Assembly (NCBI RefSeq): GCF_002162035.1
Contig: NZ_CP021138.1
Location: forward strand, 744,001-808,000
Length of the DNA: 64,000 nt
Direction: 5' to 3'
Origin: Sulfuriferula sp. AH1
GTDB taxonomy: Bacteria; Pseudomonadota; Gammaproteobacteria; Burkholderiales; Sulfuriferulaceae
Below, piece after piece: positions 1 to 7,641 of the stretch (the stretch's first letter is position 1; each line of letters opens with the position of its first letter). The position numbers and the translations under genes are program-made. Under the pieces are notes generated by a model, which saw only the letters and a list, made by a program, of their open reading frames with translations, searched no databases and was not told where the DNA came from.

Positions 1-55
1 CACCCACACTGACCCGCAAGGCGGCAGTGTGAGCGCGCCCAACGGAATAATGTAA
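1..55 (+). CDS. Phage baseplate assembly protein (gpV/Mu gp45-like), C-terminal end only
   Basis: Only the last 17 codons are inside the window, read in the frame starting at base 2 and ending at TAA 53-55. The tail reads THTDPQGGSVSAPNGIM, the kind of His/Gly/Pro-rich C-terminus typical of gpV/gp45 baseplate spike proteins. The stop overlaps the ATG of the next gene (TAATG), as expected inside a Mu-like tail operon. The family call rests on this short tail plus the following gp46-gp47-gp48 order. Confidence 0.6.
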   Translation, partial: THTDPQGGSVSAPNGIM

Positions 56-426
56 TGGATGCCTGGATCAATCCGTCCACGGGTGACTATGAACTGAGCA
101 ATGGTGCGGCTTTGCGCGACCCTGCAAATGGACTAGCCAATGCCGTCTACCTGCGCCTGATGACGCCGCTCGCCAGCTACTGGGCCGACACCACGCTGGG
201 CAGTCGTTTGCATGAGTTGCAGCGCGAGAAAGATGTGGCGCGTGTTGCGATTCTGGCTCAGCAATATTCAGAGCAGGCGCTGGCCCCGCTCAAGGCCGAT
301 GGGCGCGTGACGGACATAGCGGTAACTGTGGATCGCCCTGGCAATGGCTGGATGTATTTGTTCATACAGGTGACTGCCGCCAGTGGCGAGCAGTTGCCTT
401 TTACTTACCCCGTTAAAGTGATTTAA
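55..426 (+). CDS. Phage GP46-family baseplate/tail protein
   Basis: A 123-residue protein matching the Mu gp46 family in length, in its start (MDAWINPSTGDYEL) and in its central WADTTLGSRLHEL block. Mu gp46 is a baseplate component of the contractile tail, made between gp45 and gp47. The start codon overlaps the stop of the upstream gene and the stop lies 3 bases before the next ATG, so it is one link of a translationally coupled tail operon. The structural role is inferred from family and position; there is no catalytic motif to check. Confidence 0.82.
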   Translation: MDAWINPSTGDYELSNGAALRDPANGLANAVYLRLMTPLASYWADTTLGSRLHELQREKDVARVAILAQQYSEQALAPLKADGRVTDIAVTVDRPGNGWMYLFIQVTAASGEQLPFTYPVKVI

Positions 427-429
427 GAC

Positions 430-1500
430 ATGGCATTTTTAACGCTCGATTATCAGGCTGTGCGCGACGGTATATTGCGCGATATCGCTAATCAGCCGCG
501 CTCGGATGGCCAGGTGCCGAATGTGGCGCTGGATGGCGATTATGCTATCCGGGCGAATGCCACCGGCTCCGCCATCGAAGGGCTTTACCAGCATCAACAG
601 TGGATCGTGCGCCAGCTTTTCGCGGATACGGCTGACACGGACTACCTGGAGCGGTTTGGCGCGCGCTATAAAATCTATCGGCTGCAAGCCGTGGCAGCTA
701 CCGGCAGTATCGACTTCTCCGGCACGCCAGGTGCAGCCGTGCCCATTGGCACTGCATCCACGACGATAGATGGCGTTGCCTTTGTCACCACTGCGGCCAG
801 CGTGATCGGCGCCGGCGGTACGGTGAACATTGCCGCCCAGGCTTCGCTTGCCGGGGCGGCGGGAAACAAGCTTGCAGGCACGGCGCTGACGCTCACCGCT
901 GCGCCCCCCGGCGTGCTGTCACAGGCGGCGATCAATACCATGACCGGCGGTGCCGATGCGGAGACCAATGCCGCGCTGCTGGCGCGCATATTGTTCCGCC
1001 TGCAAAACCCGCCTTGCGGCGGTGCGGCCCATGACTATTACGCCTGGGCGATAGAGGTATCCGGCGTCAGCGCTGCCTATGTGTACTCCAACCGGCGCGG
1101 GCTGGGCACGACCGATGTAATCATCCTGACGAATGGCGGGCTTCCCAGTGCGGGCCTGGTGGCCAGCGTGCAAAGCCATATCGATGGCGTGCGCCCGGTG
1201 CAGGCGGATTTTCTGGTGTTCGCGCCAACGGCGGTAGCGGCCAACATCACTGCTACGCTGACCTTGGCGGCCGGGTATGTGCTGGCCGATGTTGCGGCGG
1301 CGATCAATACCGTGCTGGATGCCTATTTCGCCACGTTGAAACCCGGCGACACCTGCTACATCAACCGCATTCGCGCCATTATCTCGGATACGCCAGGCGT
1401 GCTTGATTTCAACCTCACCGCCCCGGCCGGGAATGTGGCCACGCTGGTGGACGCCACCCATACCGAGATTGCTGTTAAGGGCGTCGTGACTCTGACATGA
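430..1500 (+). CDS. Baseplate J / Mu gp47-like protein
   Basis: A 356-residue protein of the baseplate J (gp47) family, a wedge component of contractile phage tails that links baseplate to tail fibres. Family-like blocks are the N-terminal LDYQAVRDGILRDIANQ, the central NPPCGGAAHDYYAWAIEVSGV and a C-terminal domain with AINTVLDAYFATLKPGDT. Length is normal for the family. It sits between the gp46 and gp48 homologues exactly as in Mu. The stop overlaps the next start (ATGA), so the genes are probably translationally coupled. Confidence 0.9.
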   Translation: MAFLTLDYQAVRDGILRDIANQPRSDGQVPNVALDGDYAIRANATGSAIEGLYQHQQWIVRQLFADTADTDYLERFGARYKIYRLQAVAATGSIDFSGTPGAAVPIGTASTTIDGVAFVTTAASVIGAGGTVNIAAQASLAGAAGNKLAGTALTLTAAPPGVLSQAAINTMTGGADAETNAALLARILFRLQNPPCGGAAHDYYAWAIEVSGVSAAYVYSNRRGLGTTDVIILTNGGLPSAGLVASVQSHIDGVRPVQADFLVFAPTAVAANITATLTLAAGYVLADVAAAINTVLDAYFATLKPGDTCYINRIRAIISDTPGVLDFNLTAPAGNVATLVDATHTEIAVKGVVTLT

Positions 1501-2066
1501 ATCACGCCGACCTTCTAAAGCTGCTGCTGCCGCCGTCGAGCATCGACCCGAATGGGCTGGCGATATCGATCGAATTAGCCGCCGAAGGCAAGGCGCTCGA
1601 CACGGCCTATTACAGCGCCAACCAGCTGCTCGAGGAGGCAGACCCAAGCACCACGGTGATGATGCTTCCCGACTGGGAGCGCAACTACGGACTGCCCGAT
1701 GCCTGCGTGGCGGCCGCCGGGATCATCCAGTCAACTCAGGAGCGGCGCGCTGCACTGGTAGCCAAGGTGACTATGGTGGGCGGCCAGGATCCGGCGTTCT
1801 TCATCGGGCTGGCGGCCGATCTCGGCTACACAGTGAGCATCACCGAATGGCGGCCGCACACCACCGAGGACGATTCTGAGTACCCGGTAACCGACGAACC
1901 CTGGCGCTTCGTCTGGCAGGTCAATGCGCCGCTGAACACCATCCGCGAGCAGACCACCGAAGACGATACCGAAATGGCGCTTGAGGTTTGGGGAAACGAT
2001 CTTTTGGAATGCGTGATCAGCCGCTTCAAACCGGCGCATACGCATGTAATTTTCAGCTACGCATAA
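1497..2066 (+). CDS. Mu gp48/YmfQ-like tail protein (DUF2313)
   Basis: A 189-residue protein beginning MNHADLLKLLLPPSSIDPNG with a DWERNYGLPD motif, both characteristic of the YmfQ/DUF2313 family (Mu gp48). These proteins belong to the baseplate and precede the tail-fibre genes in Mu-like phages. The ATG overlaps the stop of the gp47 homologue by 4 bases. A good ribosome site for the following gene (aaggag) lies at its end, which marks the boundary between the baseplate block and the host-recognition block. Confidence 0.87.
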   Translation: MNHADLLKLLLPPSSIDPNGLAISIELAAEGKALDTAYYSANQLLEEADPSTTVMMLPDWERNYGLPDACVAAAGIIQSTQERRAALVAKVTMVGGQDPAFFIGLAADLGYTVSITEWRPHTTEDDSEYPVTDEPWRFVWQVNAPLNTIREQTTEDDTEMALEVWGNDLLECVISRFKPAHTHVIFSYA

Positions 2067-2080
2067 AGGAGAAAGACACC

Positions 2081-2380
2081 ATGCAGCGAGTCAAACGCAG
2101 TACCGCCATCGCCGTTTTACCGGCGGCTCCGGCTGGGGGCACACCGGGGTATTTTGCGGCCCCTAATCCGCAAGGCGGCGTGCCCGCCACGGTACCTGGG
2201 TACGAGTGGTACAACGGGGTGCAGGAAGAGCTTTGCAACGCGATTTTGGATTCCGGTCAGACCCTCGATCCTGATAATAACTCCCAGCTTAAGTACGCCA
2301 TTCAGGTGCACGACACCGCTGCGGTAAAAAGTTACCGGCTGGGCGTTTCCAACGGCGCGCTCGTCCTCATCGAACAATAA
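2081..2380 (+). CDS. Short tail-fibre-like protein
   Basis: 99 residues from the ATG at 2081, chosen over the upstream 1988 start because a strong aaggag site ends 9-10 bases before it and the longer reading would run inside gp48. The pattern (STAIAVLPA, then a Gly/Pro/Asn-rich stretch, then WYNGVQEELCNAIL and a QLKYAIQV block) is what is seen at the N-terminus of many phage tail fibre or collar proteins. It stops after this module, so it may anchor or replace the fibre stem with the DGR target protein as the tip. Function is inferred from position. Confidence 0.65.
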   Translation: MQRVKRSTAIAVLPAAPAGGTPGYFAAPNPQGGVPATVPGYEWYNGVQEELCNAILDSGQTLDPDNNSQLKYAIQVHDTAAVKSYRLGVSNGALVLIEQ

Positions 2381-2391
2381 GGAGGTTTTAC

Positions 2392-2718
2392 ATGTACGGA
2401 ATTCCGCGAATCCTGCAAACACGGGAAGACTTTGATCTTGCTGTCTCTCTGGCCCGGAGCGGAGAGGCAGACCGCCATGTTGTTGCTAATCAGCTGCATG
2501 GCTTGCTCGAGGCGGCTCAGCACTACGTCTTTGACCGAGTGCTTGCCGCTGGCGAGGCGCCGGATGGCGCCATGCCAGGCTACTGTGTTGTCGAGCCGAG
2601 CGATACGAATCCACAGCGCCAGCAGCTAAAAAGCATCATCGACAACGAGGCGCGGCTGTTTGCGCTTGGCTTCGCCCAGGCGGAAATTGAATCACTTATC
2701 ACTGAATTGGAGGCTTGA
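2392..2718 (+). CDS. Uncharacterised phage protein upstream of the DGR target
   Basis: A 108-residue acidic protein with a strong ribosome site (aaggaggt, ending 7 bases before ATG). It looks mostly helical, with no signal peptide, membrane segment or recognisable motif. It lies between the tail-fibre-like gene and the DGR target, and its stop TGA (2716-2718) sits just before the target's ATG at 2721, so the two are probably co-translated. A tail assembly or chaperone-like role would fit the place, but nothing in the sequence proves it. Confidence 0.55.
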   Translation: MYGIPRILQTREDFDLAVSLARSGEADRHVVANQLHGLLEAAQHYVFDRVLAAGEAPDGAMPGYCVVEPSDTNPQRQQLKSIIDNEARLFALGFAQAEIESLITELEA

Positions 2719-2720
2719 TC

Positions 2721-3770
2721 ATGGCTGTAGGCGACATCATTGCAATCCCGGCCATGTCGGCCGGTTATTTTCAGGTGCAGGGGCGGCTAGCCAAAACCAG
2801 CGGCGGCGATACCCTGGACATACCGGCCGGCATGCTGAACATCGGTGGCAACGGGTTTGGCTATATCCTCAGCGCCGCCACGGCCTGGAACCCCTATCTC
2901 GTTGCGAATAACGACGCGAGCTTTTCCATAATCACGCTCGGCGACGATATCTATGTCTATGCTGTCCAGCAGGCAAGCGGCGTGGCCAAACTGGTGGCCA
3001 GTAAAAATGCTACGGCGCCAACCGGATATAGCGCCAGCAATTCGCGCAAGATCGGCGGTTTCCACGTCGGCAGAACTCGGCCAATAGCCAATCGCTTCGA
3101 TGCCGCCTTCCTGCCAGCCATCGGTATCGTGCCCAACAGCGTCTGGGATCTCGCCACTCGCCCCAAGGCCGCCCCCGAGGGTATGGCCGAGTTCGTCCCA
3201 GGACGTTGGGGCAGCATTTACCTATTGTCGCCGATCTCAGGCGCATGGCCCAGCGTGGTCTTCGGCAGTCGCTACAACGTATCGCCAGTGCGATCGACGG
3301 GCGGCTATAACGAGCTGGATCTGCATCGTGGTGTGCATGCCGCCGGGATGCGCGAACCGACCTTTGAAGAATGGTTGATGATGGCAGACGGCGCACCGCA
3401 AGGGTTGGATGCTGCCAACGATACCGCGTGGAGCATGACGACCAACACCGGGCCATGCAACACGGGGTTCCTGCAGAAATCAGTGAGTTGCGCAAATTTC
3501 GTGGATTGTGTCGGAAATCTCTGGGAGCGCCTGAATCACCACTTTGACACCACCACTGGCGCCTATGCGTGGGATGCTACGGTGGTCAATACCGGGCAGG
3601 ACGCTGCTCAAGCGCGCGGCCAGGTGAACCACGTTGCCTGGCGCGACGCCGTCGCCGGTGGCAGTTGGGTTGAGGGTCTCCACGCGGGCGCTCGCACGCT
3701 CAGTTTGGGTGCCGCTGCCTGGGCTGCCGGTGGCAATATCGGCGTGCGCGGTGTCAGTGATTCCCTATGA
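2721..3770 (+). CDS. DGR target protein: variable C-type-lectin-fold phage receptor-binding protein (Mtd-like)
   Basis: 349 residues from ATG 2721 (ggagg at 2709-2713; the TTG at 2715 is a poorer start). The C-terminal half has the formylglycine-generating-enzyme/C-type lectin layout of DGR targets: MREPTFEEWLMMADG, NFVDCVGNLWERLN, GGSWVEGLHAGART and the closing NIGVRGVSD. The last 50 codons are the variable repeat (residues 298-347). Relative to the template, residues 328, 330, 332, 335 and 337 are Ser, Gly, Ala, Ala, Gly where the template encodes Asn, and 309, 311 and 320 also differ. In Bordetella phage BPP-1 the equivalent protein (Mtd) sits on the tail fibre tips and binds the host receptor; the position after the baseplate genes suggests the same role here. 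Confidence 0.88.
   Translation: MAVGDIIAIPAMSAGYFQVQGRLAKTSGGDTLDIPAGMLNIGGNGFGYILSAATAWNPYLVANNDASFSIITLGDDIYVYAVQQASGVAKLVASKNATAPTGYSASNSRKIGGFHVGRTRPIANRFDAAFLPAIGIVPNSVWDLATRPKAAPEGMAEFVPGRWGSIYLLSPISGAWPSVVFGSRYNVSPVRSTGGYNELDLHRGVHAAGMREPTFEEWLMMADGAPQGLDAANDTAWSMTTNTGPCNTGFLQKSVSCANFVDCVGNLWERLNHHFDTTTGAYAWDATVVNTGQDAAQARGQVNHVAWRDAVAGGSWVEGLHAGARTLSLGAAAWAAGGNIGVRGVSDSL
3613..3761 (+). repeat. DGR variable repeat (VR)
   Basis: 149 bp at the 3' end of the target gene, aligning without gaps to 4211-4359 (offset 598). There are 12 differences. Eleven fall at template adenines: VR 3651, 3703, 3708, 3709, 3714, 3723, 3729, 3730 are A to G, and 3678, 3715, 3724 are A to C. The exception is 3645 (template T, here G). 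The last 31 bp (3731-3761) are identical to the template although it has five adenines there, as expected for the initiation-of-mutagenic-homology (IMH) end. Confidence 0.95.
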
Positions 3771-4183
3771 GCATATCGCTTGATTTGCCTGGTCACGGCA
3801 GTGGCCGGGCGGCTGACTTGCCGAGGCTGAAGGTGCTGGAGCTGTGCGAGCAGCTGATTGTCGAGGCAATGCCTGTGCTCGATAAGATTCCGCGCTGCCA
3901 TCGCTACCGCTACGGTGCGCGGCTGGAATCGGCGTTGTTTGCACTGCCTGAACTGGTAGTGCAGGCAGCGAGCTCAGGCACCAAGACCAAGGTGTTTGCA
4001 TTAACAGACCATCTGGAAGTAACCAATGCCCTATTGCGCATTGGTGCGGAGCGCAAGCTGATCAGCCCGCGATTCGTGGGGCATATCATGAGCGCGCCTA
4101 CCGAAGTCTCGCCGCGAGGTGGACTACTGCGGCAGGTTGGTGCGATGGCAGCCTCCTGGCGCAAATCGATAAAAGGGCAGTAA
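3767..4183 (+). CDS. avd: DGR accessory variability determinant (Avd-like)
   Basis: 138 residues, predicted all-helical and basic, with the block IPRCHRYRYGARLESALFAL, which resembles the Avd/23S-intervening-protein four-helix bundle family (aromatic/Arg-rich start of helix 2, then an LE.AL pattern). Avd forms a pentamer that binds the reverse transcriptase and template RNA and is needed for mutagenic cDNA synthesis in Bordetella. The ATG overlaps the last codons of the target gene (stop at 3768-3770), and the template repeat starts 27 bases after its stop. Length (about 125-140) is right for Avd. Confidence 0.85.
   Translation: MSISLDLPGHGSGRAADLPRLKVLELCEQLIVEAMPVLDKIPRCHRYRYGARLESALFALPELVVQAASSGTKTKVFALTDHLEVTNALLRIGAERKLISPRFVGHIMSAPTEVSPRGGLLRQVGAMAASWRKSIKGQ
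3787..3810 (+). other. Candidate DGR target-recognition hairpin downstream of VR
   Basis: Arms 3787-3796 and 3801-3810 pair over 10 positions (eight Watson-Crick pairs and two G-T pairs) around a 4-base loop GGCA (3797-3800). Hairpin/cruciform elements a short distance after VR, with a GRNA-type loop, promote retrohoming in Bordetella and related DGRs. Here it lies 26 bp after VR, inside the start of avd. The G-T pairs weaken it as a DNA cruciform, so it remains a candidate. Confidence 0.5.
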
Positions 4184-4210
4184 TGCAACAAGGGATAAGG
4201 CGGGTTTCGA

Positions 4211-4359
4211 CGCGCGGCCAGGTGAACCACGTTGCCTGGCGCTACGCCATCGCCGGTGGCAGTTGGGTTGAGGGTATCCACGCGGGCGCTCGCACGCTCA
4301 ATTTGAATGCCAATGCCTGGAATGCCAATGGCAATATCGGCGTGCGCGGTGTCAGTGAT
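4211..4359 (+). repeat. DGR template repeat (TR)
   Basis: 149-bp non-coding donor copy of the VR, lying between avd and the reverse transcriptase gene. It carries 26 adenines; 11 are substituted in the VR. Six AAT codons in the target frame (4300-4335) form the hypermutable core, and AAT is the classic DGR design because A changes there avoid stop codons. The surrounding 4184-4523 gap (340 bases) holds no convincing gene: the open frame across it is a by-product of the template matching coding sequence. Confidence 0.95.
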
Positions 4360-4440
4360 GCAATAGCAGCAGAGCAATACTCAGATGCCCGGGCGGAATC
4401 TCGTGCACCCTGCATCCCCTATGGATCAGCCGCTTCATCC

Positions 4441-4462
4441 CAGCCAGGCAGTCGCCTGGCTG
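4441..4462 (+). ncRNA. Perfect hairpin in the spacer between TR and RT (candidate structured part of TR-RNA)
   Basis: Arms 4441-4449 and 4454-4462 are perfectly complementary (9 bp, GC-rich) with the loop AGTC at 4450-4453. It starts 82 bases after the end of TR. In the Bordetella DGR the RNA just downstream of TR (the Sp segment) is structured, binds RT-Avd and provides the priming site for cDNA. No U-run follows (the next bases are AT-rich with an A-run), so a terminator is unlikely. Confidence 0.5.
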
Positions 4463-4523
4463 AATATCAAAAAACGCCGTGCAGTCGCGATACCAAGCCG
4501 CTGCATGGCAACAACCTCCAAAT

Positions 4524-5537
4524 ATGAGTAAAAAACACGACCATCTAATCGAGCGGATTGCCGACTGGGATAACCTGCTGCTGGCCTACCAGAAAGCCCG
4601 CAGCGGCAAGCGAGATCGCGCTGAAGTGCAGGTGTTTTCCAGCGACCTTTGGCTGCACCTGGGGAATATCCAGCACCATCTGCTGCACGGAACCTACCGG
4701 ATGGGCGACTATCGTCGATTCGTTGTGTATGAGCCGAAGCGCCGGGAAATTCTGGCTGCGCCTTTCGCGGATAGGGTAATGCAGCATGCCATCCTGAATG
4801 TGATGCAGCCGATCTGGGATGCCTGCATGATCGAGGACACCTATGCATGTCGCCCCGGCAAGGGCACGCATGCCGGGGCTGACCGGTTGCAGCAGTGGCT
4901 ACGCGATATGGCGGCCAATCAGCCGTTGGCGGAGGTCTGGATTGCGAAGACGGATTTCAGCAAGTATTTCCAACGTATTCAGCATGCCGATCTAAAGCTG
5001 ATCTGCCGGCGCAAGATCATATGCGAGCGAACCCTGCAACTGCTGGATTCGATTATCGGCAGCACGCCCGGCGGTGTCGGCATCCCGGTTGGAAACCTAA
5101 CCAGCCAGTGGCTGGCCAACCTGCTAGGCAACGAGATCGACCAGTGGATCAAGCGTGAGTTGCGTGTGAAGCGCTATCTGCGCTATATGGATGATATGGT
5201 TGCCATCTTCTCCAGCCAGTCTGAGGCGCAGTGGTTCGTGCGGCAGATTGAAGATCGTGCTGGTCGATATGGGCTTACGTTTTCGCGGTGGAGCGTGCAC
5301 CGCGCAACGCAAGGTATTAATGCGCTTGGCTACCGTATCTGGCCAACTCATAAGTTGTTACGCCGCCGAGCGGTTGTGATGTTCAGGCGTGATATGCGGC
5401 ATCTGGTGCGCGGCAAGGAAGAGGGTTGGGCCAGTTCTGATCAGGTGATGGCTAGGGTTAAGGCATTCGTAGCCCATGCAAAACATGGGGATACATGGCG
5501 GCTTCGTAAAAAGCTATTTTCGTCTATTATTTTTTAA
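4524..5537 (+). CDS. DGR reverse transcriptase
   Basis: 337 residues from ATG 4524, chosen because the protein then begins MSKKHDHLIERIADWDNL, a usual DGR-RT start; no strong ribosome site is visible. It makes error-prone cDNA from TR RNA. Seen in order: an N-terminal LLLAYQKARSGK and RRFVVYEPKRREI block, motif A with Asp144 (AKTDFSKYF), the DGR-type motif 4 GIPVGNLTSQ (residues 186-195; group II introns usually have QG here) and the catalytic YMDD at 221-224. It lacks maturase or endonuclease domains, as DGR enzymes do. It is the last gene before the likely prophage end. Confidence 0.93.
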   Translation: MSKKHDHLIERIADWDNLLLAYQKARSGKRDRAEVQVFSSDLWLHLGNIQHHLLHGTYRMGDYRRFVVYEPKRREILAAPFADRVMQHAILNVMQPIWDACMIEDTYACRPGKGTHAGADRLQQWLRDMAANQPLAEVWIAKTDFSKYFQRIQHADLKLICRRKIICERTLQLLDSIIGSTPGGVGIPVGNLTSQWLANLLGNEIDQWIKRELRVKRYLRYMDDMVAIFSSQSEAQWFVRQIEDRAGRYGLTFSRWSVHRATQGINALGYRIWPTHKLLRRRAVVMFRRDMRHLVRGKEEGWASSDQVMARVKAFVAHAKHGDTWRLRKKLFSSIIF

Positions 5538-5543
5538 AATGTT

Positions 5544-5592
5544 TAGTGCCAAATAAATCGCAAATCAGTGCCAAATTGGCCGCGCCGTTACA
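5544..5592 (+). mobile_element. Candidate right terminus of the Mu-like prophage
   Basis: Read inward from 5592 (minus strand) the sequence begins TGTAACGG, and two 22-bp units at terminal positions 6-27 and 28-49 match at 13 of 22 bases, both containing ATTTGGCACT (plus-strand copies 5545-5554 and 5567-5576). Mu right ends begin with TG and carry two adjacent 22-bp MuA sites at these same positions. The left end and the 5-bp target duplication are outside the window, so the exact end is inferred. Confidence 0.6.
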
Positions 5593-5668
5593 AGCACGCG
5601 CAGTCGGCTTTGAGAATACTGACATCGGTGGTGTGACGCCGGATTTATTGGAAAGCTCCGGATGGAAA
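5593..5668 (+). pseudogene. Truncated 3' remnant of an unidentified gene next to the prophage end
   Basis: An open frame reads through the proposed prophage end and stops with TAA at 5666-5668, finishing in GFENTDIGGVTPDLLESSGWK. No start codon or ribosome site is nearby. It looks like the end of a host gene cut off by phage insertion, since Mu-like phages insert nearly at random. I do not recognise the protein. It may alternatively be meaningless open frame. Confidence 0.3.
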
Positions 5669-5701
5669 TAAAAAAGGCTTGCATCGCTGCAAGCCTTGTT
5701 T
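5668..5701 (-). terminator. Intrinsic terminator of tRNA-Lys
   Basis: A perfect 10-bp stem (5674-5683 with 5688-5697) and a TCGC loop. On the minus strand it is followed by a run of Ts (the A-run at 5668-5675 on plus), directly after the tRNA 3' end. A shorter T-run on the plus strand could let it also stop rightward phage transcripts. Confidence 0.85.
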
Positions 5702-5703
5702 TC

Positions 5704-5779
5704 TGGTGGGTCGGGCGGGATTCGAACCCGCGACAAACGGATTAAAAGTCCGCTGCTCTACCGACTGAGCTACCGACCC
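5704..5779 (-). tRNA. tRNA-Lys (TTT anticodon)
   Basis: 76 nt on the minus strand including an encoded CCA (5704-5706). The 7-bp acceptor stem is GGGTCGG with CCGACCC, the D arm has TAGCTCAGTCGGTAGAGC, the anticodon loop is CTTTTAA (anticodon TTT, reads AAA/AAG) and the T arm contains GGTTCGAATCC. It has its own promoter and terminator. It lies about 110 bp from the proposed prophage end, but no tRNA segment is duplicated at the phage side, so it is not evidently an attachment site. Confidence 0.97.
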
Positions 5780-5793
5780 GGTTGAGAGCCGCA

Positions 5794-5821
5794 ATTATAC
5801 TGGATTTCACAAATCCGTCAA
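5794..5821 (-). promoter_or_regulatory. Sigma-70 promoter of tRNA-Lys
   Basis: On the minus strand TTGACG (5816-5821), a 16-bp spacer, then a consensus TATAAT (5794-5799), about 15-20 bases upstream of the mature tRNA 5' end. The spacer region contains a perfect inverted repeat GGATTT-CAC-AAATCC (5802-5816). Confidence 0.85.
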
Positions 5822-5844
5822 GAAAGTAAATGCAAAAAAACGAA

Positions 5845-6102
5845 TCAGAATTTTATGAGGAGAAATTCTGGATGTAGCCGGGAGCCGTCCTCGACAAGGA
5901 CCGGGATGCTGATGGTGGTGCTGACTTCGCGGTGTGCGCGACCATGAACGTCGCTCTGAATGGCGTGATCAGGATGACATTTTTGCGCGATCAGGGCCGG
6001 CGGCTGGTCGATGATTTCGATGGCGATATAACGATCGTTTTTCCAGATGAAATTCAGTCCGATTATTTCGTGAAGTTCGTCGAGACTGATCGGCGGTTTC
6101 AT
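5845..6102 (-). CDS. Conserved small protein of unknown function
   Basis: 85 residues, cytoplasmic (no signal or membrane segment), beginning MKPPISLDELHEIIG. Its ATG shares one base with the stop of the upstream amidotransferase gene (TAATG), so it is almost certainly co-translated. I recognise no domain. A regulator or partner of the amidotransferase is possible but is pure inference from coupling. The tRNA-Lys promoter follows at once, so it ends the leftward operon. Confidence 0.6.
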   Translation of the reverse strand: MKPPISLDELHEIIGLNFIWKNDRYIAIEIIDQPPALIAQKCHPDHAIQSDVHGRAHREVSTTISIPVLVEDGSRLHPEFLLIKF

Positions 6103-6809
6103 TATTCTTTCAGGCCCTTGATCCAGCGGCTGTACATGCGGTCCGCCACGTGATTCAGGTCGTTCAGCCTGGTTTGCAGGTCGGCCTGCATTTCGGCCGG
6201 GGTTTGCACGGCGGGGCTGGCACTGGCGGCATTGATTTCGTCTGTACCGTGTTCACACCAGCTGTTGACCATGTCGGCCGTCATTTCGATGTGGCATTGC
6301 AAGGCCAGGTTTTTGCCGATGACGTAGGCCTGATTTGCGCAGTAATCGCTTTTAAGGATATGCGTTGCGCCTTGAGGCAGGCTGAAGGTTTCACCATGCC
6401 AGTGAAAGCTGCTGAACCGGGTGAGGCCGTCCAGCCATGCGCGCGCACTGTCGTTGTCGGTGGCGTAAACTTCGCCCCAGCCGATTTCTTTTACCGGATT
6501 GAGGTTGACAGACGCTCCCAGCGCTTTGGAAATGAGCTGGCCGCCAAGGCAGTGACCGAGGACGGGAATGTCAGCCGCTATGGCATCGCGTATCAGTTGC
6601 AATGACTGCGAAATCCACGGCAATGGATCATTTACGCTCATGCTGCCCCCCATGAATACCAGGCCGGAAAATGCCGTCGGGTCCGCGGGGATGGGTTCGT
6701 TTTCGTCAACCTTGATCAATACACTTGGAATCTGGTGCTGATCGAGAAAGTCGCTGAAATAGCCTGCGCCTTCAAACGGGATATGGCGAAAAATGGCTAC
6801 GGGTTTCAT
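6102..6809 (-). CDS. Type 1 glutamine amidotransferase (GMP-synthase-like)
   Basis: 235 residues of the class I glutamine amidotransferase fold. The nucleophile elbow is GHCLGGQ (Cys87), and the His-Glu pair appears in QCHIEMT. The upstream FMGGSMSVND loop and the FHWHGETFSLP segment are typical of stand-alone GuaA-N-like proteins of unknown substrate. There is no synthetase domain, so it is not guaA itself. It starts 22 bases after folE2 ends and is coupled to the following 85-residue gene. It could process a gamma-glutamyl compound or supply ammonia to an unknown partner. Confidence 0.82.
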   Translation of the reverse strand: MKPVAIFRHIPFEGAGYFSDFLDQHQIPSVLIKVDENEPIPADPTAFSGLVFMGGSMSVNDPLPWISQSLQLIRDAIAADIPVLGHCLGGQLISKALGASVNLNPVKEIGWGEVYATDNDSARAWLDGLTRFSSFHWHGETFSLPQGATHILKSDYCANQAYVIGKNLALQCHIEMTADMVNSWCEHGTDEINAASASPAVQTPAEMQADLQTRLNDLNHVADRMYSRWIKGLKE

Positions 6810-6831
6810 GGCGTTGGCATGCTGTCGCAGC

Positions 6832-7641
6832 TCAAAGCTTGCGTTTGTCGCGTTCGATCAATGCGTAGGCCGAATGATTATGGATGGATTCGAAATTCTC
6901 GCTTTCCACCACATAACTGTCGATACGCGGCTCCCTGTCCAGCGCTGCGGCAACATCGCGCACCATGTCTTCGACGAATTTCGGATTGTCGTAGGCGCGT
7001 TCGGTGACAAATTTCTCATCCGGGCGTTTGAGCAAGCCGTAGAGTTCGCAGGAAGCCTGCTTCTCGGCTACGGCAACGATATCCTCTATCCACATGAAGT
7101 CGTTGGTGCGCGCGCTGATGGTCACATGCGAACGCTGATTATGCGCGCCGTATTCCGAAATTTTCTTCGAGCACGGGCACAGGCTGGTGACCGGCACCAC
7201 GACCTTGGTGGTGTGCACGTACTGGCCATTCTCAATCGCGCCGATCAGCGTTACGTCGTAATCCATCAGGCTCTGCACGCCGGAAACAGGCGCGGTTTTG
7301 TTGATGAAATACGGGAAGCTCATTTCGATGTAGCCGGAATCTGCCTCCAGGCGCTGTACCATCTGGCGCAAAATGGATTCGAAATTCTCGATGGAGATCT
7401 CGCGCTCGTTGGTGTTGAGTATCTCCACGAAGCGCGACATGTGCGTGCCCTTGAAGTTATGCGGCAAGAACACGTACATGTTGAAATTGGCAATCGTGTG
7501 CTGTATGCCACTGCTTTTATCGGCCACCTTGACCGGGTGGCGGATCGATTTTATCCCCACCTTGTTGATGGCGATCTGGCGGGTATCCGCGTAGTTTTGC
7601 ACATCCGGCATGGGGGCAGTGATGTCACAACAGTCGTTCAT
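6832..7641 (-). CDS. folE2: GTP cyclohydrolase FolE2 (type IB)
   Basis: Converts GTP to 7,8-dihydroneopterin triphosphate, the first step of folate (and queuosine) synthesis. The protein (269 residues from the ATG at 7641, preferred over 7647 because the agga site is then properly spaced) shows the FolE2 start [16 protein letters not shown] and the core [24 protein letters not shown], which carries the family's conserved Cys/His residues. FolE2 differs from FolE in metal use and often serves under zinc limitation. It is downstream of dxs with a 60-base gap, leftward with the whole block. Confidence 0.93.

Follow-up and report, generated by a model that had tools for sequence, protein, structure and literature searches.

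Layout of the locus

The window analysed here is a 64,000-nucleotide stretch of the genome of Sulfuriferula sp. AH1 (NZ_CP021138.1, positions 744,001 to 808,000, forward strand). It opens in the tail genes of a prophage, which are followed by the components of a diversity-generating retroelement (DGR) and the prophage end. The features, in window coordinates, are:

1..5592 (+), right part of a Mu-type prophage, the left end lying outside the window
55..426 (+), gp46-type baseplate protein (PF07409, 3.4e-17, above the Pfam cut-off)
430..1500 (+), gp47-type Baseplate_J protein (PF04865, 5.1e-70, above the Pfam cut-off)
1497..2066 (+), Mu Gp48-type baseplate protein (PF10076, 4.6e-29, above the Pfam cut-off)
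2081..2380 (+), 99-aa protein resembling a tail fibre N-terminus (phrog_1858 tail fiber, 1e-9, over a small portion of the profile)
2392..2718 (+), unassigned 108-aa protein, immediately 5' of the DGR target
2721 (ATG)..3770 (stop) (+), DGR target, a predicted Mtd-like receptor-binding tail protein (PF21916, Mtd 1yu3, phrog_11262)
3613..3761 (+), variable repeat (VR), from its ungapped alignment with TR
3740..3761 (+), invariant GC-rich 3' end of VR, candidate IMH of putative function
3767..4183 (+), Avd-like accessory protein (phrog_3206, NF033474, PF22296)
3788..3809 (+), inverted repeat able to form a hairpin or cruciform (9-bp stem of 7 Watson-Crick and two T.G pairs, loop GGCA)
4211..4359 (+), template repeat (TR), from its ungapped alignment with VR
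4524..5537 (stop) (+), DGR reverse transcriptase (RT) with YMDD, frame open from 4479 (8ub7, phrog_1423, BPP-1 Brt)
5545..5575 (+), right-end pair of AGTGCCAAA sites, matching two left-end sites in inverted orientation
5593..5597 (no strand), right copy of the 5-bp duplication AGCAC at the right end of the element

The original prediction is supported in that the DGR is complete and its host is not Bordetella. Target with VR, Avd-like gene, TR and YMDD RT were all found in the predicted order within 2721..5537; the RT has its motif and an uninterrupted frame, and the Avd-like and target frames are also open. The cassette does lie after the gp46-gp47-gp48 baseplate genes, but not directly as had been claimed, since the ORFs at 2081-2380 and 2392-2718 intervene. 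The 108-aa product of the latter had no Pfam or PHROG match at 0.01; in 39 of 41 relatives, tblastn places a match to it 5' of the target.

The assignment to a Mu-like prophage is firmer than originally claimed. The whole element (G000:C1:712143-749592; 37,450 bp) has TG...CA ends and is flanked on both sides by the target duplication AGCAC. It encodes transposition proteins (Mu-transpos_C, 2.9e-17, and rve, 2.7e-9; an AAA_22 and TniB ATPase) and head and contractile-tail proteins (Portal_Mu, sheath, DNA_circ_N, GP46, Baseplate_J and Gp48). The element is inserted in a DUF5669 gene; both flanks adjoin in two other genomes (L044 and L045), and a third (L046) matches the left flank only. Two relatives of the prophage, L010 and L011, cease matching at 5592. 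The element is an apparently complete Mu-type insertion. The AGTGCCAAA repeats, which are probably transposase-binding sites, were considered as the extreme ends and rejected, as inspection by eye found no matching duplication beside them and the sites are internal. A tRNA-Lys gene (5704-5779) was likewise rejected as an attachment site because the element stops at 5592 with TG...CA and the 5-bp duplication.

Adenine-linked variation and the downstream hairpin

VR and TR lie 598 nt apart and align over 149 bp without gaps. The alignment reproduces the reported 12 differences, 11 at TR adenines and one at a TR thymine. Adenines account for 26 of the 149 TR positions, and the chance of at least 11 of 12 differences falling on them is 6e-9 (hypergeometric, assuming differences spread evenly along TR). 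The claim of past A-specific mutagenic retrohoming is supported by these differences, which are nearly confined to adenines. The exception is T4243 in TR against G3645 in VR, and the VR base is the changed one, since six relatives (L007, L009, L010, L011, L013 and L021) carry T in both repeats at this site. Only the last 9 nt of the target gene lie beyond VR. A search of the AH1 genome with TR at E 0.001 returned TR itself and VR only.

The same pattern extends to relatives, which are metagenome or genome contigs, that is, assemblies. Among 23 non-redundant VR/TR pairs, 259 of 264 differences are at TR adenines, so that 45% of 574 TR adenines are changed versus 5 of 2,399 other TR bases. L058 and L083 were left out of this count as duplicates of L049 and L082, and so was L062, in which the repeat is a tandem copy of the target gene rather than a VR/TR pair. 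Non-adenine differences occur in 5 of the 23 pairs, and the one in AH1 is therefore not rare. A VR/TR pair was not found in 16 of 42 sequences examined, 13 of which stop no more than about 350 nt past the target match; L068, L076 and L078 extend about 6 kb past the target match with neither a VR/TR pair nor an RT match. L010, L011 and L021 are contigs that are 96-99% identical. Their TRs are identical over 148 bp, and pairwise comparison of the VRs gives 8, 15 and 14 differences, every one at a TR adenine. Judged from the adenine bias of the pairs and from this VR variation over identical TRs, the DGR family has been active in nature.

Within the last 20 nt of the repeat, none of 22 TR adenines differs across 12 pairs (L016, a duplicate of L007, not being counted). 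A hairpin with a GRNA loop lies 26 nt past VR in AH1. The target-site hairpin of BPP-1 also lies 3' of VR with a GRNA loop, and the distance in AH1 is inside the 4-34 bp range given in PMC3240598. Such a hairpin is present in 17 of the 23 pairs and lacking in the other 6, compared to 57 of 5,000 stretches drawn at random from these sequences under the same test. The AH1 stem carries an extra T.G pair when set beside that of the near relative L007, and the full hairpin is absent as a whole from the predicted minimum-energy DNA fold. The stems of L010, L011 and L021 likewise carry a mismatch.

Encoded proteins and alternative explanations

The target contains the second domain of Mtd (PF21916, 5.5e-21, above cut-off) and matches the solved Mtd structure (1yu3, 1.8e-7) over residues 65-349, up to the C-terminal part, and the tail protein family phrog_11262 (8.2e-38). 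It is best regarded as an Mtd-like tail-tip protein with predicted receptor binding. A C-type lectin fold, expected of BPP-1-type targets, is putative here: the Mtd match would fit it, but an AlphaFold2 model from a 13-row alignment had a mean pLDDT of 46.7, with residues 148-349 under 50. The Avd-like protein matches phrog_3206, 'Avd protein of DGR' (5.4e-12), as well as NF033474 (1.5e-13) and PF22296 (3e-9), the latter two under their curated cut-offs (50.9 of 80 bits and 37.8 of 40 bits). A phmmer search of the PDB with this protein gave only four matches, to DARPin/repeat proteins, which were taken as chance.

The RT is 40.4% identical to BPP-1 Brt and matches phrog_1423 (4.4e-113). The closest solved RT is 8ub7 (5.5e-67), with a group II intron RT a distant second (1.6e-15). 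Matches to 62 PADLOC models, mostly of other RTs, were weaker than that to the general RT model among the best 25 of the 62. A group II intron or retron RT was rejected on the basis of these affinities and the lack of any Rfam intron match in 2500-6000 up to E 1; the NCBIfam group II model scored 98.1 of 300 bits and the St85 retron model 41.9 of 235.

Taken as a whole, the cassette is very likely (probability roughly 0.93) a BPP-1-type DGR that occupies the extreme right end of what appears to be a complete Mu-like prophage and would diversify a tail-tip gene. In such a system, a TR-containing transcript would be reverse transcribed by the RT with Avd, with errors arising at adenines, and the cDNA would replace VR at the 3' end of the tail-tip gene. 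Replacement may be guided by the common 3' end of the repeats and by the hairpin 26 nt downstream, and would yield phage particles differing in their receptor-binding surfaces. Predicted from sequence are the RNA step and what the hairpin does, as well as binding to a receptor and any activity in the AH1 strain.

Two near-identical repeats 598 nt apart could come from any duplication, with later drift or protein-level selection accounting for the differences and no mutagenic reverse transcription involved. The adenine bias of this and 22 other pairs leads to rejection of ordinary duplication, which is also at odds with VRs that differ over identical TRs and with the RT and Avd-like genes flanking TR; it is hardly conceivable as an explanation. 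It is very improbable that the target is instead an iron enzyme of the SUMF1/EgtB/PvdO type, an auxiliary metabolic gene, as ORF53 of Chromohalobacter phage YPCBV-1 is annotated and described. The Mtd matches argue against it, and no enzyme domain is among the Pfam matches of the target up to E 0.01. Moreover, the gene sits in the tail module, and its C-terminus is VR, so that diversification would scramble the catalytic domain. A DGR that once worked and is now dormant or decaying is more plausible than either, although still unlikely. The substitution of G for T at 3645 in VR, the additional T.G pair and the predicted fold that omits the full hairpin would fit a drifting VR and a weakened stem. 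However, all three frames are open, the mismatched stems of L010, L011 and L021 accompany diversified VRs, and non-adenine differences recur among the pairs. Since the AH1 copy does carry a non-adenine VR difference and an additional T.G pair compared to L007, its present-day activity is considered putative.

Known systems and a possible exchangeable tail-tip module

DGRs were first seen in Bordetella phage BPP-1, in which the order is target with VR, avd, TR and RT (mtd-avd-TR-brt). The AH1 element shares this order, an Mtd-like target whose 3' end holds VR, the related RT and adenine-specific mutagenesis, but it differs in residing in a Mu-type prophage with a transposase and a 5-bp duplication. 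The targets of Bordetella phages BIP-1 and BMP-1 are 28.8% identical to the AH1 target over 83% of its length; the BPP-1 record itself was absent from the four records found at 1e-5. Bacillus phage BalMu-1, presumably Mu-like from its name, encodes an RT close to the right end of its 39.9-kb record that shares 36.3% identity with the AH1 RT across 99% of the query.

The original prediction implied that a DGR on a Mu-type tail module is new. This was an overstatement because Mu-like DGR phages have already been published. YPCBV-1 (OP380511) is an isolated Mu-like DGR phage of a salt mine host (PMC9769972) and has the same order in print, gp46-gp47-DUF2313-orf-orf-target-avd-RT, together with the MuA C-terminal and Mu portal families. 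Its target and RT are 48.3% and 51.2% identical to those of AH1, its VR and TR differ over 126 bp at 14 positions, all at adenines, and it has a hairpin with a GGCA loop. Its RT ends 64 bp from the end of the record, which is labelled partial. It differs in its host, Chromohalobacter, and in the annotation of the target as a SUMF1-type enzyme; the sequence comparison suggests that this published metabolic gene is better read as a DGR target. The Bacteroides Hankyphage, likewise a transposable Mu-like prophage, makes 5-bp duplications and diversifies a tail protein through a DGR whose activity has been measured (PMC6199706, PMC12135933). It differs in that its hosts are Bacteroides and its target, a large ORF in which residues 2188-2225 hold VR, resembles no characterised protein (PMC6199706). 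The AH1 DGR is a well-preserved further example of a known system and not a new mechanism.

IMG/VR relatives (L007-L021 and L049-L085) carry the same target family, with 35-89% identity over the matched parts, and VR precedes TR in the pairs found. Sixteen records, 15 from IMG/VR and YPCBV-1, were taken from among the longer of 41 (long records such as L061, L076, L078 and L085 were left out). A tyrosine integrase was present in 8 of the 16 and the MuA C-terminal family in YPCBV-1 only. With the RT as query, genome contigs gave one relative (37% identical). Matches were found in 26 of 100 genomes, including that of AH1; outside its own genome the best long matches, both from other families, had identities of 41% and 38%, and the genus itself gave five weak ones (25-30%).

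The evidence is evenly poised on whether the Mtd/Avd/TR/RT cassette and the small upstream protein form a tail-tip module exchanged between phages of the Mu and integrase types. In the former, such a module would fill the slot of the invertible tail-fibre segment of Mu, one tropism-switching device replacing another there. AH1, a sulfur-oxidising bacterium from mine tailings that can be cultured, provides a well-bounded tail-diversifying retroelement in a closed genome. It has natural relatives in which the template is identical and the variable repeats differ, and the comparison suggests that a published phage 'metabolic gene' is a retroelement target instead. The AH1 prophage is a concrete site at which to ask if tail diversification goes on in a dormant prophage.

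The DGR cassette and its protein families

The original prediction described a complete diversity-generating retroelement (DGR), with a target gene carrying the variable repeat (VR), Avd, template repeat (TR) and reverse transcriptase (RT) in that order. The anatomy of the window bears this out, with the target, Avd-like gene, TR and RT following one another along it.

Parts of the DGR cassette, in window positions
2721-3770: target gene, 349 aa
3613-3761: variable repeat
3767-4183: Avd-like gene
4211-4359: template repeat
4524-5537: reverse transcriptase, frame open from 4479

The gap-free alignment of VR with TR spans 149 bp and has 12 mismatches. At 11 of these the TR base is adenine, exactly as first counted (8 are changed to G, 3 to C); at the remaining one it is T. 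TR contains 26 adenines, and the chance of at least 11 of 12 differences falling on them is p = 6e-9. The VR differences alter eight target residues, seven via adenines (TR to VR: I311V, I320L, N328S, N330G, N332A, N335A and N337G) and one via T to G (Y309D).

The target matches the second Mtd domain of Pfam above cut-off (5.5e-21), and its residues 65-349 match residues 97-378 of the solved Bordetella Mtd, 1yu3 (phmmer, 1.8e-7). A C-type lectin fold is predicted for the target from sequence homology. The best match of the RT is 8ub7 (5.5e-67), far above group II intron and other RTs. The structure table labels 8ub7 'Reverse transcriptase' and nothing more; we take it to be the BPP-1 DGR enzyme. 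The RT is 40.4% identical to the brt gene in the BPP-1 record. Something similar is encoded in 161 phage records at 1e-5, some of which may encode RTs other than DGR enzymes; in 113 the similarity covers 80% or more of the RT. The Avd-like protein is similar to PHROG 3206 ('Avd protein of DGR', 5.4e-12) and, under their cut-offs, to the NCBIfam and Pfam Avd models; its only PDB matches were four of DARPin type, taken as chance.

Adenine-linked variation and the target-site hairpin

Two scans of viral contigs returned overlapping sets of 15 and 40 loci. Repeat pairs were surveyed in 42 sequences (the window, Chromohalobacter phage YPCBV-1 and the 40 loci of the larger scan) and found in 26; once two duplicates and a tandem copy of a gene were removed, 23 pairs remained. 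TR adenines carry 259 of the 264 VR/TR differences in these pairs, 45% of 574 adenines being changed versus 5 of 2,399 other bases. The five non-adenine differences fall one each in five pairs, the window pair among them. Three viral contigs that are 96-99% identical over 5.7-7.3 kb (L010, L011 and L021) have one and the same TR along 148 bp. Compared two by two, their VRs show 8 (L010-L011), 15 (L010-L021) and 14 (L011-L021) differing sites, all at TR adenines. This comparison is near the population test proposed with the original prediction, made on assembled relatives and not on this strain, and it did not refute the reading.

Change is unevenly spread over codons of the target frame. In 12 pairs, adenines were changed at 123 of 198 positions in AAT and AAC codons, 8 of 13 in ATC, 2 of 13 in ACG and 3 of 11 in GAC, versus none of 61 in CAC, AGT, CAG, GAG, TAC and GAT codons together; none of the 22 adenines in the final 20 nt of the repeat was changed. 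Either protein-level selection or the enzyme itself may account for this contrast between codons.

Phage DGRs have been described with hairpins of GC-rich 7-10 bp stems and 4-nt GRNA loops, 4-34 bp past VR, and the hairpin is required for homing in BPP-1 (Guo et al. 2011, PMC3240598). The window carries CCTGGTCAC-GGCA-GTGGCCGGG 26 nt past VR. A test for a GRNA loop on a stem with 7 or more Watson-Crick pairs out of 9, no more than 80 nt past VR, found a hairpin in 17 of the 23 pairs (12 distinct forms) versus 57 of 5,000 stretches drawn at random from these sequences. The five loop-proximal stem pairs differ in their letters between forms and keep pairing (Watson-Crick or G.T) in every one of the 12; some outer pairs are mismatched. 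The selecting test is itself biased towards pairing. The stem includes two T.G pairs in the window and one in the viral contig L007. When the window was folded as single-strand DNA, the best predicted structure did not include the whole hairpin. In six pairs (L066, L069, L072, L073, L075 and L079) no GRNA-loop hairpin was found within 80 nt past VR. Their differences also lie nearly all at adenines, with one C to T in L075, and these elements may use a different recognition signal.

Six adenines of the L012 TR (L012:6485-6631) are missing from the L014 TR (L014:4937-5083), all as A to G, and at these sites the L014 TR equals the L014 VR; VR sequence may have been transferred into TR, or the assembly may be chimaeric. 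In L062 an Mtd-like target gene lies in tandem copies (~5390-7063) with 65 differences over all four bases in 562 aligned nt. Neither RT nor Avd matches were found at this locus, which is apparently a family member without a DGR. L068, L076 and L078, with Mtd-like targets and ~6 kb of downstream sequence, gave neither a VR/TR pair nor an RT match and are possibly further such members.

The Mu-type prophage and possible exchange of the tail-tip cassette

The claim that the element lies in a Mu-like prophage is supported by its genes and ends. Ten proteins upstream of the DGR were scanned for families; seven gave phage-type matches, two had none and one, DUF5669, is encoded by the host gene on the left border. 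The seven are a repressor carrying an S24 domain, a MuA-type transposase, a MuB-like ATPase, a Mu portal, a tail sheath, a tail tape-measure type protein and a DNA-circulation protein. Comparison with the uninterrupted host gene of two other genomes from the genus (L044 and L045; a third, L046, matches the left side only) delimits a prophage of 37,450 bp with TG...CA ends and AGCAC, a duplication, flanking both sides. Copies of TTTGGCACT/AGTGCCAAA, inverted relative to each other, lie near both ends. The right end is 55 bp from the end of the RT, and two related viral contigs lose similarity exactly at window 5592. The adjoining tRNA-Lys was considered as an attachment site and rejected, given the TG...CA ends and the AGCAC on both sides. 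The DUF5669 gene (G000:C1:711942-712178, chromosome coordinates) is broken close to its 3' end; because the prophage interrupts it, its left part ends in phage-encoded residues.

Integration type was searched in 16 of 41 phage records, 15 from IMG/VR and YPCBV-1 (L082 and L083 have the same cassette). Some of these records may be incomplete, and an integrase found in one could come from flanking host DNA. Eight carry a tyrosine integrase, all eight with a VR/TR pair; the MuA C-terminal family occurs in one (YPCBV-1) and the Mu portal in three (YPCBV-1, L073 and L079), L073 having an additional rve-type match above cut-off. Five have none of these four. The distribution suggests that the same tail-tip cassette is carried by phages of different integration modes. 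Phage Mu holds an invertible tail-fibre segment at the corresponding slot. A 108-aa protein (window 2392-2718) precedes the target in 39 of 41 relatives, integrase-bearing records included; it had no Pfam or PHROG match and is possibly a tail-tip adaptor or chaperone.

Known Mu-like DGR phages and YPCBV-1 ORF53

The facts of the original prediction held and its reading largely did, with the qualification that Mu-like phage DGRs, those of Hankyphage and YPCBV-1, were already described. Hankyphage, a Mu-like prophage flanked by 5-bp duplications, has a DGR (PMC6199706), the activity of which was measured in cultures and particles (PMC12135933); the former report also describes five phages with hypervariable proteins resembling the BPP-1 tail fibre. 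For YPCBV-1, a Mu-like phage obtained as an isolate, Avd and RT were reported by its authors (PMC9769972), and the gene order at its right end is that of the window cassette. Its ORF53 (L006:3983-5032) was discussed as a SUMF1/EgtB/PvdO iron enzyme and auxiliary metabolic gene; the words 'template' and 'variable region' are absent from the main text of that paper. ORF53 shares 48.3% identity with the window target, and its 126-bp VR has 14 differences, every one of them at a TR adenine. Therefore, judged by sequence, ORF53 is better read as the DGR target than as the published enzyme.

The main text of the two Sulfuriferula sp. AH1 papers (PMC5552976 and PMC12285272) contains neither 'prophage' nor 'retroelement', and the literature search made did not find the window element in print. 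The AH1 DGR is a further case of the already known DGRs of Mu-like phages.
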